Made by a program: the position numbers and the translations under genes
The notes under the pieces: model-generated
What the model was told of the DNA's origin: nothing
Seen by the model: the letters and a program-made list of their open reading frames with translations, nothing else
The model's database searches: none
DNA from: Flagellimonas abyssi
Lineage (GTDB): Bacteria; Bacteroidota; Bacteroidia; Flavobacteriales; Flavobacteriaceae
Assembly (NCBI RefSeq): GCF_019457905.1
Contig: NZ_JAHZSV010000001.1
Location: forward strand, 1 to 64,000
Reading direction: 5' to 3'
DNA: 64,000 nt
In this document: positions 8,835-59,341 of the stretch, piece after piece
Layout of the letters: every line of letters begins with the position of its first letter
Position numbering within the stretch: the first letter of the stretch is position 1

Positions 8835-8919
8835 CGGAGGAAGAGGGATTCGAACCCCCGGAGGTGTGACCCTCAACAGTTTTCAAGACTGCCGCATTCG
8901 ACCACTCTGCCATTCCTCC
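8835..8919 (-). tRNA. tRNA-Ser (anticodon UGA)
   Basis: An 85-nt class II tRNA. The 7-bp acceptor stem is GGAGGAA/TTCCTCC with discriminator G. The anticodon loop CTTGAAA gives UGA, flanked by the GCAGT/ACTGT stem. There is a long variable arm as expected for serine, and the T-loop is TTCGAAT. CCA is not encoded. It is the only complete RNA gene I find in the window. Confidence 0.95.
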
Positions 8920-44039: not shown

Positions 44040-44871
44040 AGTTTTAAAACCCGGACTTTATACGACCGTTCAGGATTTAGGAAGGTACGGTCACAGAGAT
44101 ATTGGAGTGCCGATTGCAGGAGCCATGGATGTGGAATCGGTAAAGAAAGCCAATCTGCTATTGGAAAATGATGAAAATGATGCGGTTCTTGAAATAACCA
44201 TGACCGGGCCAACCCTCCAATTTGATACGGACACATATATAAGTTTGTCCGGAGCCCATATTGTGGCCACTTTGAACAATGAGCCGATAGATAATTACTC
44301 AGTCATCAAAATTGGAAAGGGAGATATTTTGTCCTACGGCCGATTGGAATTAGGTTTTAGAGGATATATCGCTATAAAGGGCGGTTTTCAGACCAAAAAG
44401 GTGCTCGATAGTCGCTCACAGTTTTATCCTGTTACAAAATCGGCACGACTTAAAGATGGTGATGAGGTGCCATACAGCGAAACCAAGAACTATGAACCAA
44501 AAATCTCAGAGGTGAAAATTGAAGAACATTTCGAAAATAATATTTTAAAGGTCTATAAAGGGCCTGAGTTTTCTCTTTTATCCGATGGCCAGCTTACAGA
44601 GATTTTTGCCAAACCGTATACCGTTTCCAAAGAAAACAACCGAATGGCCTATCAGCTCTCCGAATTGATTACCGGACATTCCCATTCCATGCTGACCTCT
44701 GGAACCTTGCCGGGAACTATACAATTGACACCAGCAGGCCGAATGATCATTTTAATGAAGGATGGCCAGACCACAGGAGGGTATCCCCGTATACTTCAAT
44801 TGAGCGAGGAATCCATATCTATATTGGCCCAGAAAAAGTATGGGGATGAGTTGAAGTTTAAACTGGTTTGA
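44032..44871 (+). CDS. pxpC: 5-oxoprolinase subunit C (KipA/biotin-dependent carboxyltransferase-like)
   Basis: A 279-residue subunit with the family start KPGLYTTVQDLGRYGHRDIG and PIAGAMD, the middle block FRGYIAIKGGFQTKKVLDSRS, and GQTTGGYPRILQLS near the end. The protein is a little shorter than the E. coli form (~310) but all conserved blocks are present. It is the last gene of the transporter-pxpABC operon; the ilv leader begins 56 bp later. Confidence 0.94.
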   Translation: MLKVLKPGLYTTVQDLGRYGHRDIGVPIAGAMDVESVKKANLLLENDENDAVLEITMTGPTLQFDTDTYISLSGAHIVATLNNEPIDNYSVIKIGKGDILSYGRLELGFRGYIAIKGGFQTKKVLDSRSQFYPVTKSARLKDGDEVPYSETKNYEPKISEVKIEEHFENNILKVYKGPEFSLLSDGQLTEIFAKPYTVSKENNRMAYQLSELITGHSHSMLTSGTLPGTIQLTPAGRMIILMKDGQTTGGYPRILQLSEESISILAQKKYGDELKFKLV

Positions 44872-44927
44872 GAAACATATTCTAATTCTTGATTCTAAAT
44901 TCATAATATTTTTCGTACCATTACAAT

Positions 44928-44984
44928 ATGAAAAGAAATAAACAAGTCATTGTCGAGGTCGTGATTATTCCAGAAATGGAGTGA
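44928..44984 (+). CDS. Candidate ilv leader peptide (18 residues, Val/Ile-rich)
   Basis: ATG AAA at 44928 opens a frame ending in TGA at 44982-44984, encoding MKRNKQVIVEVVIIPEME. Residues 7-14 contain four Val and three Ile codons out of eight. It is located between pxpC and ilvD, just ahead of a strong terminator, as expected for an attenuation leader sensing charged tRNA-Val and tRNA-Ile. There is no homology evidence; the call rests on codon content, position and the RNA folds downstream. Confidence 0.75.
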   Translation: MKRNKQVIVEVVIIPEME

Positions 44985-45019
44985 TACGGACTTGCAATTG
45001 ACTTAAAAAGGCCTGTATC
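44983..45019 (+). promoter_or_regulatory. Candidate antiterminator of the ilv attenuator
   Basis: GATACGGACTT (44983-44993), which overlaps the leader stop codon, can pair with AAGGCCTGTATC (45008-45019), the 5' arm of the terminator: ten base pairs with one bulged T and one A-G mismatch, closing a 14-nt loop. A ribosome stalled on the Val/Ile codons (44946-44969) would leave it free. One that reaches the stop codon would cover it and let the terminator form. Confidence 0.65.
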
Positions 45020-45041
45020 CCACACGATACAGGCCTTTTTT
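45005..45041 (+). terminator. ilv attenuator terminator
   Basis: Perfect 15-bp inverted repeat (AAAAAGGCCTGTATC at 45005-45019, complement at 45026-45040) with a 6-nt loop, ending in six Ts. It lies 20 bp after the leader stop codon and about 190 bp upstream of ilvD. Confidence 0.9.
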
Positions 45042-45175
45042 ATTACAATAAAATTAATTGAATATTGGAATTTTAATCAATCTAAAAAACTGAAATACAG
45101 TAAATTATGTTTATTATGTTTCCAGTGGATTTAAACAGCGAACAACTGTTAAAAATCTAGGGTATTTTAAACATA

Positions 45176-45183
45176 TATCTTTG
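45176..45183 (+). promoter_or_regulatory. Possible second ilv promoter (-7 element) downstream of the attenuator
   Basis: TATCTTTG matches the Bacteroidota -7 consensus TAnnTTTG and lies 49 bp before the ilvD ATG. No clear TTG is seen 19-22 bp upstream. If used, it would give attenuator-independent basal transcription. Confidence 0.35.
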
Positions 45184-45232
45184 AATTACGGTATAAATTC
45201 AGAAGAATACTGTATTTGAATGAAATTTGATA

Positions 45233-46909
45233 ATGGAATTGAACAAGTTTAGCAAAAAAGTAACACAGGACCCCACGCTGCCTGCCGCCCAGGCCATGTT
45301 GCACGCGATTGGGCTCACAGACGAAGATTTACAAAAACCCCTAATCGGAATAGCGAGTACGGGCTACGAGGGAAACCCCTGCAACATGCACTTAAATGAT
45401 TTGGCCCTCGAAGTGAAAAAAGGAGTGGAGTCTTCCAATTTGGTCGGCCTTATTTTCAACACCATTGGGGTCAGCGATGGAATCTCCAACGGAACACCAG
45501 GAATGCGATATTCCTTGCCTTCAAGGGATATTATTGCAGATTCCATTGAAACCGTGATCCAAGCGATGAGCTACGATGGGTTGGTCACTGTGGTAGGATG
45601 CGATAAAAATATGCCCGGTGCCCTAATGGCGCAACTGCGATTGAACCGTCCGTCCATTTTGGTATATGGCGGAACCATTGCGCCAGGTTGCCATAACAAT
45701 AAAAAACTCGATATCATCTCCGCTTTTGAGGCTTACGGACAAAAAGTTGCTGGAGCGATAGATGAAAAAGAATATAAGGAAGTCATTCACAAAGCGTGTC
45801 CGGGAGCCGGCGCCTGCGGGGGTATGTACACTGCAAACACTATGGCATCTGCCATTGAGGCCATGGGAATGTCCATGCCGTTCAACTCGTCCATTCCGGC
45901 GGTTAACGATAAAAAACAAGCAGATTGTGAAGCATCGGGAGCGGCACTGTATCATTTATTGAAAGAAGATATTAAACCAAGAGACATTGTTACCAAAAAA
46001 GCATTGGAAAATGCCTTTAGGTTGGTGACCGTGCTTGGTGGCTCTACCAATGCGGTGCTTCACTTTATGGCCATTGCGCACGCTGCTGAAGTGGACTTTA
46101 CCTTGGAGGACATCACAAGAATCAGTGAGTCGACGCCATTGTTGGCCGATTTAAAACCAAGTGGAAAATATTTGATGGAAGACCTACACAAGGTGGGAGG
46201 GGTTCCTGCGGTATTGAAATATATGTTGAAGGAAGGTATGCTTCACGGTGATTGTATGACGGTCACTGGAAAAACCTTGGCGGAAAACCTATTGGATGCA
46301 CCGGATTTACAAGAAGGGCAGGATATCATAAGAAAAAAGGAGCAACCTATTAAGGAGACGGGACATATTCGTATATTATATGGAAACCTAGCTTCCGAAG
46401 GTGCCGTGGCCAAAATCACAGGGAAAGAAGGACTGGAATTCACAGGAACTGCCCGTGTTTTTGACAGCGAAACAGCGGTGAACGAAGGCATCCACACAGG
46501 CAAGGTCCAAAAAGGGGATGTGGTGGTCATCCGTTACGAGGGGCCAAAAGGAGCTCCGGGAATGCCCGAAATGTTGAAGCCTACCTCCGCCATTATGGGC
46601 GCAGGCCTTGGAAAGGATGTGGCCCTGATTACCGATGGAAGGTTCTCCGGTGGTTCCCACGGATTTGTTGTGGGTCACGTTTCCCCCGAAGCACAAGTAG
46701 GTGGGGGCATCGCCTTGGTAAAAAATGGCGATGAAATCACCATTGATGCGGTAAACAATACCATCAATATTAATATTTCGGACGAAGAGTTCGAACAACG
46801 AAGAAAAGAATGGAAGCAACCTGAACTTAAAATAAAGTCGGGAAGCTTGTACAAATACGCCAAAACGGTATCATCTGCAGCAAAAGGCTGTGTTACCGAT
46901 TTGTTTTAA
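45233..46909 (+). CDS. ilvD: Dihydroxy-acid dehydratase
   Basis: A 558-residue Fe-S dehydratase making 2-keto acids from dihydroxy acids in valine and isoleucine synthesis. The three cluster cysteines are Cys50 (GNPCNMH), Cys123 (VGCDKNMPG) and Cys195 (GAGACGGMY). The C-terminal swivel domain contains [15 protein letters not shown] and [15 protein letters not shown] chose ATG 45233; a TTG at 45227 would add two residues. It is the first structural gene of ilvDB-MTase-ilvNCA behind the candidate attenuator. Confidence 0.97.
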
Positions 46910-48679: not shown

Positions 48680-49258
48680 ATGGATCAATCCACTATCACA
48701 GAAAAACCCAAGCAATATCAAGATTTGCTTGAGAAGAGCAAGGAGATGGGATTTACCATGCCTTCCGATATTTATATTGGCACTTTATTGAAAACATTGG
48801 TGGCATCAAAACCATCAGGTAAGTTTTTGGAATTGGGTACAGGAATCGGACTATCATTGTCTTGGTTGATTCAGGGAATGGACGAGGATTCAAAAATCAT
48901 AAGTGTAGACAATGATGCTTCGCTCATCGAAGTGGCAAAATTGTTTTTTGAAGACGAAGACAGATTGGAGCTTGTGTGTGATGATGGAGGGAAATGGTTG
49001 GAGGAATACAATGGCGATACTTTCGATTTGATTTTTGCAGATGCGTGGCCGGGAAAGTACAGTCATTTGGACAGAACCTTGGGATTGTTGAAAAAGGGCG
49101 GTTACTATGTAATCGACGATATGAAAAAACAGCCCAATTGGCCGGAAGGACATGAACAAAAGGCAAACCAATTGATCAAATCAATTGAAAAAAGAAAAGA
49201 CATTACAATAACAAAGATGGACTGGTCCACAGGACTTATAGTCGCAGTAAAAAAATAA
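48680..49258 (+). CDS. SAM-dependent methyltransferase (O-methyltransferase-like) inside the ilvBN unit
   Basis: A 192-residue class I methyltransferase. The SAM motif I is KFLELGTGIGLSLSWL, followed by the acidic SVDNDASLIEVAK. Motif IV is FDLIFADAWPGKYSHLD and post-motif GGYYVIDDM. These match the caffeoyl-CoA/catechol O-methyltransferase-like group (family 3). It starts at the very next base after the ilvB stop and ends 7 bp before ilvN, so it is translated as part of the operon. No methylation step belongs to branched-chain synthesis, so its role is unknown. Confidence 0.88.
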   Translation: MDQSTITEKPKQYQDLLEKSKEMGFTMPSDIYIGTLLKTLVASKPSGKFLELGTGIGLSLSWLIQGMDEDSKIISVDNDASLIEVAKLFFEDEDRLELVCDDGGKWLEEYNGDTFDLIFADAWPGKYSHLDRTLGLLKKGGYYVIDDMKKQPNWPEGHEQKANQLIKSIEKRKDITITKMDWSTGLIVAVKK

Positions 49259-59141: not shown

Positions 59142-59189
59142 TGTGTCTTCCATAATTTGTAAGCCTACAAAGTTAAAATTTGTATGTGA

Positions 59190-59204
59190 AACCGATTTTC
59201 GGTT
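59190..59204. other. Palindrome in the leuC upstream region
   Basis: AACCGA-TTT-TCGGTT, a 6-bp inverted repeat just upstream of the candidate leuC -7 element. It could be an operator. No T-run or Leu-rich leader peptide accompanies it. Confidence 0.35.
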
Positions 59205-59341
59205 CTGGTAAAATTACGATGTTCAACCGCAATTTCAATGGGTTGTTTTTAAAGTTAACAAATCTTAAGGGTTGATTTTCAATTTATAACAAAGAAGTGT
59301 GCGGAATTGTATGGTCTTCCAATTACAAACCTAAATCGCTG

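Follow-up and report, generated by a model that had tools for sequence, protein, structure and literature searches.

How is the ilv operon of Flagellimonas abyssi controlled, and what part is played by the DNA that separates its first gene from the pxp genes before it? The window, by which we mean the whole stretch of 64,000 nucleotides that was analysed, carries an ilvD-ilvB-(methyltransferase-like)-ilvN-ilvC-ilvA operon that runs to 52577 (ORF list and NCBIfam). Its ilvD, ilvB, ilvN, ilvC and ilvA genes are NCBIfam matches, and valine and isoleucine are the products of these genes 3' of the leader described here. On the 5' side of the leader lie pxpA, pxpB and a pxpC-like gene (NCBIfam; the pxpC-like scores fall below the curated cut-offs), the last of which ends at 44871 on the same strand, 56 bp before the leader ORF. 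The ORF located between ilvB and ilvN (48680-49258, 192 aa) is methyltransferase-like; its NCBIfam matches are limited to weak, sub-threshold ones to polyamine aminopropyltransferases.

The DNA in question very probably encodes a ribosome-mediated (leader-peptide) transcription attenuator of the trp/his/ilv type, which would sense charged tRNA-Val and tRNA-Ile ahead of ilvDB(x)NCA. In the enteric ilvGMEDA/ilvBN, trp and his attenuators, a short ORF rich in end-product codons is combined with the exclusive pairings 1:2, 2:3 and 3:4, and the terminator is placed before the first structural gene. The corresponding elements of the present locus, together with ilvD, are as follows.

44928-44984, + strand: leader peptide ORF, MKRNKQVIVEVVIIPEME, 18 codons with seven Val/Ile among codons 7-14, stop codon TGA
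44958-44972, + strand: region 1, the Val/Ile/Pro codons 11-15, which supply the 5' strand of the 1:2 (protector) hairpin (MFE fold, covariation)
44977-44993, + strand: region 2, overlapping the stop codon, with region 1 or region 3 as its partner (MFE fold, alignment)
45005-45019, + strand: region 3, the 5' arm of the terminator, with CTGTATC at 45013-45019 as the antiterminator partner of region 2
45005-45041, + strand: 3:4 intrinsic terminator of 15 bp with a loop of 6 and a U-run
45233-46909, + strand: ilvD, first gene of the operon (NCBIfam, ORFs)

The initial annotation had described an 18-codon ORF with seven Val/Ile codons in eight positions, and codons 7-14 indeed read V I V E V V I I. 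This ORF is unique in the 64-kb window when both strands are searched for ATG, GTG or TTG ORFs of 10-40 codons with at least seven Val/Ile in eight. Among 5000 dinucleotide shuffles of 44872-45226, such an ORF arose in five, a terminator of at least 10 bp in one and both together in none. The ORF of the window has zero Leu codons, and the leader peptides of the genus hold between zero and two, mainly at codons 6 and 17; the earlier remark, by which leucine is not the principal signal, therefore holds. The leu operon had been said to be without such a leader, and by eye there is no Leu-rich leader in 59154-59341 (- strand), upstream of leuC. A TAACTTTG box is present in that same interval.

Conservation in close relatives had been set beforehand as the condition on which this reading depends. 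We searched 59 relatives, 42 of which gave an IlvD match, and fetched 30 loci; one of these (L029) comes from another family, leaving 29 genus loci. The ORF and the pairings are kept in 24 of the 29, the distance to ilvD being about 305 bases for the leader ORF and about 230-190 bases for the terminator. In four loci (L005, L009, L010 and L025) the terminator escaped a simple hairpin filter but is visible in the alignment. The five loci without a leader (L020, L021, L023, L027 and L030) still contain ilvD and the promoter-like element P2 considered below. The leader ORF has exactly 18 codons in 23 of the 24 loci and 19 in one, by an extra in-frame Ile codon; its stop is TGA in all 24, and its start is ATG in 21 and GTG in three. 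Across the genus, Val/Ile occupy most of codons 7-14 and are kept at codons 11-14: in the 23 ORFs of 18 codons, codon 11 is Val in 23, codon 12 is Ile or Val in 21 and codon 13 is Ile in 21. The in-frame synonymous excess is small (S/N of 0.227, versus 0.192 and 0.104 in the other frames), which may be what a short ORF under RNA constraint shows.

With E below 1e-21 as the limit, a covariance model of the element matched 28 of the 36 genus genomes. Four of these matches come from genomes outside the training set of the model, and each is located just upstream of ilvD; the eight genomes without a strong match include G030, which is 71% complete and gave no IlvD. Another match in the window's own genome (G000:C38, E 7e-4) was rejected, as it is a hairpin without an adjoining Val/Ile ORF. 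A small TTG ORF 3' of the terminator (LNIGILINLKN in the window) was likewise discarded, its frame not being kept in all genus members.

The RNA structure of the leader was examined in the same 24 loci and in the window itself. The perfect 15-bp hairpin with a U-run reported by the initial annotation spans 45005-45040, with 15 pairs, a 6-nt loop and a U-run extending to 45041. The stop-overlapping segment 44983-44993 (GATACGGACTT), for which pairing with the 5' arm of the terminator had been claimed, is able to do so with G-U pairing and one mismatch. The fold of 44920-45050 (131 nt) has an energy of -49 kcal/mol (z of -8.8), equalled by none of 200 shuffles. This minimum-energy fold contains an extra hairpin, which the initial annotation did not mention, between the Val/Ile codons and the stop-codon region; it corresponds to the 1:2 protector hairpin of classical attenuators. 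The locus has the features of an attenuator: an end-product codon run, a terminator before the first structural gene, an exclusive antiterminator and a 1:2 protector.

Across the 24 loci, 95.1% of 696 cells are paired in the 1:2 and 3:4 helices, compared with 32.5-50.7% in slid versions. Both-side changes occur in 22 cells, versus 6.8 +/- 1.9 in shuffles, none of 500 being as high, whereas the number of pairs with double changes (five) is not above that in shuffles (4.0; 147 of 500). The 1:2 protector hairpin has both-side changes at two pairs, and the outermost terminator pair as drawn is unpaired in 15 of the 24 loci. For the 2:3 antiterminator, 96.7% of 240 cells are paired (23.2-52.9% when slid), and no covariation was detected in the 24 loci, 476 of 500 shuffles reaching its score. 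Since this helix is nearly invariant, covariation is no test of it, and its support is conservation. The attenuator architecture claimed at the outset is thus backed by covariation in 1:2 and 3:4 and by conservation without covariation in 2:3.

The hairpin could also be read as the terminator of the pxpABC operon, with the small ORF as a chance frame. The short distance to the pxpC-like gene, which lies on the same strand, speaks for this, as does the A-rich/U-rich character of the hairpin, which could terminate either strand; the covariance model weakly matches the minus strand. Nevertheless, 24 loci have kept the ORF in its frame, length, stop and Val/Ile codons, the 1:2 hairpin covaries and the combination of ORF and terminator was met in none of the 5000 shuffles. 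In two loci (L022 and L026), moreover, the upstream gene is divergent, and leader and terminator are kept at about the same distance from ilvD, which indicates that the leader belongs to ilvD and not to pxpABC. The divergent-neighbour loci and the conservation largely refute the reading as a pxp terminator with a chance ORF, which we regard as hardly credible; the leader terminator may also end pxp readthrough.

For the attenuator, how a response to amino acids would come about is suggested by the ORF and by three pairings, each exclusive of the others, conserved and in part covarying, all of them co-located with ilvD. RNA polymerase would start at or next to the start codon at 44928, and a ribosome would follow. 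With ample Val and Ile, translation would carry the ribosome to the TGA at 44982, where it would cover region 2, so that the 3:4 terminator would stop transcription near 45041. Stalled at codons 7-14, the ribosome would cover region 1, and region 2 could pair with region 3 (GATACGG/CTGTATC); the terminator could then not form, and the operon would be transcribed. If no ribosome is loaded, the 1:2 hairpin would form and termination would be the default. The 2:3 pairing begins at the G of TGA, and the masking of its 5' strand by a ribosome at the stop is a matter of geometry. When region 2 is masked, the terminator is predicted to fold at -20.6 to -32.7 kcal/mol in all 24 loci, and when the leader is masked to 4 nt before the stop, region 2 is predicted to pair with region 3 at -5.7 to -11.7 kcal/mol in 24 of 24.

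How far does this element extend beyond the genus? Our family survey comprised 168 loci including that of the window, taken from overlapping collections, and 20 further loci, of which L215-L217 are longer fetches of genomes already surveyed; L191 and L206 were left out of the counts owing to their short flanks. Because some loci appear in both the named and the unnamed collection (L130/L003, L134/L038, L157/L075 and L168/L093, among others), the counts are of loci and not of independent genomes. Two types of attenuator were distinguished by regular expressions that were written after viewing the data, and a few type-A assignments, such as that of L207, are doubtful. Type A has about 20 codons (e.g. 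MKKQILNIISIIVIVIISQG) and a GCCTTCC/GGAAGGC terminator; type B has about 18 codons and a GCCTGTATC/GATACAGGC terminator. In raw counts with a permissive ORF filter (four of nine I/V/L in the 168-locus set, five of nine in the 20-locus set), the survey without the window's locus gave 37 single A, 29 single B, nine tandem A-B, three unclassified single and two unclassified tandem attenuators, with none found in 87 loci; the 20-locus set gave four A-B, four A, one B, one unclassified and ten with none. An earlier, stricter classifier (exact mimic of at least 5 nt) had yielded 27 single and three double attenuators in 90 loci.

Against composition shuffles, with p at most 0.05 as the threshold, region 2 paired better with the 5' terminator arm in 27 of 37 single A and eight of nine first A leaders, in 15 of 30 single B and nine of nine second B leaders, and in six of seven unclassified ones. 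At E at most 0.001, 90 of the 299 family genomes contain a match to the covariance model, although many of the weak matches are probably ordinary terminators (one was checked). At least 18 of the 87 none-found loci have ilvE-like motifs directly before ilvD. In all five ilvE-first loci that were picked for a model match about 1 kb before ilvD, a tandem A-B pair is located further upstream. In L040, an ilvE gene before ilvD (596-1495) is confirmed by NCBIfam, and in several genera the attenuators lie ahead of ilvE.

The leader might respond to a signal other than Val/Ile charging, such as the overall speed of translation or the Pro at codon 15, which is conserved about as well as the best Val/Ile codons (22 of the 23 18-codon ORFs). 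The third base of this Pro codon covaries with region 2, however, so its conservation is partly structural; codons 7-14 are mostly Val/Ile, the downstream genes make Val and Ile, and in the family the peptides of both types contain about 42-44% Val+Ile. We therefore consider another signal very improbable and retain Val and Ile charging as the probable signal.

Two promoter-like elements, both missed by the initial annotation, flank the attenuator.

44916-44923, + strand: P1, a -7-like box TACCATTA, separated by 4 nt from the start codon of the leader; transcription predicted to start at 44928
45148-45183, + strand: P2, GTTAAAA-N21-TATCTTTG, between the terminator and ilvD; predicted start near 45188

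The first concerns the beginning of the RNA. In Flavobacterium psychrophilum, the sigma-A box TAnnTTTG occupies positions -12 to -5, and leaderless mRNAs account for 5.5% (PMC9723704). In each of the 24 genus loci with a leader, exactly 4 nt separate a TAnn[AT]TT[GA] box from the start codon of the leader ORF; the version in the window, TACCATTA, departs from TAnnTTTG at two positions. The -12 to -5 rule and the 4-nt spacing together put the 5' end of the RNA at the initial base of the start codon, so we predict that transcription starts at 44928 itself and that the leader ORF is leaderless. Among 29 other single type-B leaders, three of them Flagellimonas/Allomuricauda and some duplicated between collections, the box occurs 3-5 nt before the chosen start codon in 20 (18 of the 26 distinct upstreams), compared with 0.7 of 29 in composition shuffles. 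In L082, L132 and L163, inspection by eye showed an ATG further upstream in the same frame, at this distance from the box. None of the 18 type-B leaders standing second in tandem (nine plus nine loci) has a P1 box at 3-5 nt, as expected if they are transcribed through.

The second element lies behind the terminator. In all 29 genus loci, with the leader present or absent, TAnnTTTG is found 56-58 bases before ilvD with GTTAAAA upstream of it; the box is TATCTTTG in 28 of them and TATATTTG in L025. A stricter version of the pattern was found in 28 of the 167 other family loci, namely in 17 of 29 single B and 11 of 87 none-found loci, and in none of the 37 single A, nine tandem A-B and five unclassified loci. 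As a general promoter, GTTAAAA...TAnnTTTG was not enriched in the genome (three matches, versus three for the reversed control), so the case for P2 is one of local conservation. P2 would probably supply basal, unattenuated transcription from 3' of the terminator and, if active, would probably let part of ilv transcription bypass the attenuator. As P2 is kept in all 29 genus loci, the five without a leader among them, only a part of the operon's transcription is probably under the control of the attenuator.

These distributions raise the question of whether the attenuator is real but minor, with P2 as the main driver and the leader RNA or peptide acting in trans, as do rnTrpL/peTrpL of Sinorhizobium meliloti. 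P2 has a wider distribution than the leader within the genus, and 11 of the family loci with the stricter pattern have no attenuator that was found; a leaderless attenuator RNA with trans roles is described in S. meliloti (PMC7298713). Set against this, the leader keeps its cis features, that is, the 2:3 pairing and a near-constant distance to ilvD, and P2 is a conserved sequence without enrichment in the genome. We judge a minor role of this kind to be unlikely, and favour control in cis by attenuation of a part of the transcripts.

Two further observations were made around P2. Between the terminator and P2 (45042-45147), a block around TTGAATATTGGAATTTT and CTGAAATACAG is recognisably conserved in the genus, also in loci without the leader; it is perhaps a regulator site. 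In the predicted 5' UTR of the P2 transcript (45187-45214), a small hairpin TACGGTAT...ATACTGTA is possible, and by eye both of its sides seem changed in some relatives.

The element belongs to a known kind of switch, since leader-peptide, leaderless and tandem attenuators have already been reported in F. psychrophilum, S. meliloti and Salmonella, respectively. With the enteric ilv, trp and his attenuators, it shares the short codon-rich ORF, the three exclusive pairings and the placement of the terminator; it differs in its Val/Ile run without Leu, its probable leaderless start and the promoter-like element after its terminator, and no sequence relation is implied. A T-box or other Rfam leader was rejected, as the sole match of the window at gathering score is a tRNA (8835-8919); Rfam RF00506 (Thr_leader) scores 37.8 bits over 44909-45043, below its gathering score of 55, and the element is not a member of it. 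In F. psychrophilum, which belongs to the same family, Flavobacteriaceae, leader-peptide attenuation upstream of amino-acid biosynthesis operons is reported in general terms, with ilv occurring zero times in the main text (PMC9723704), and small ORFs reminiscent of leader-peptide attenuation are described in Bacteroides thetaiotaomicron (PMC7366714). The 5' end of the trpL attenuator RNA of S. meliloti is the ATG of the leader ORF (PMC7298713); that system concerns tryptophan in an alphaproteobacterium and its start is reported, whereas the start in the window is predicted. The mgtCBR leader of Salmonella contains two leader ORFs with attenuators in series, which sense ATP and proline (PMC3641672). 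Its layout resembles that of the window's relatives (A then B), but the signals differ there, whereas both leaders are Val/Ile-rich in Flavobacteriaceae; the window itself has one. None of the open-access matches listed describes a Flavobacteriaceae ilvD attenuator or a tandem whose members sense the same amino acids. What seems uncommon here is that the leader ORF apparently begins at the first base of the RNA and that a second promoter apparently lies behind the switch.

Attenuation requires a ribosome close behind RNA polymerase. A conserved, partly covarying leader-peptide attenuator whose start codon has almost nothing in front of it allows leaderless initiation and the coupling of transcription to translation in Bacteroidetes to be tested at a single short locus, with the natural variants, single and tandem, as ready comparisons. 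Bacteroidetes mRNAs are described as being without Shine-Dalgarno sequences (PMC6847099).

Finally, the survey bears on how this arrangement arose. We tentatively suggest, at slightly less than even chances, that the ancestral ilv layout of Flavobacteriaceae had A and B Val/Ile attenuators in series, and that some lineages retained the pair and others just A or just B, Flagellimonas having B alone, leaderless and with a second promoter behind the terminator; the order of gain and loss of the two types is a guess. If this is true, termination would be multiplied where two attenuators in series answer to the same amino acids, with a response steeper than that of a single attenuator, and the Flagellimonas ilv operon would have one attenuated and one unattenuated supply. 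Type A followed by type B was seen upstream of ilvD or ilvE-ilvD in L036, L039, L041, L048, L089, L133, L141, L173, L200, L040, L211-L215, L220, L222 and L230. In Aquimarina (L192 and L208), two attenuators also stand in series, with another type of terminator.
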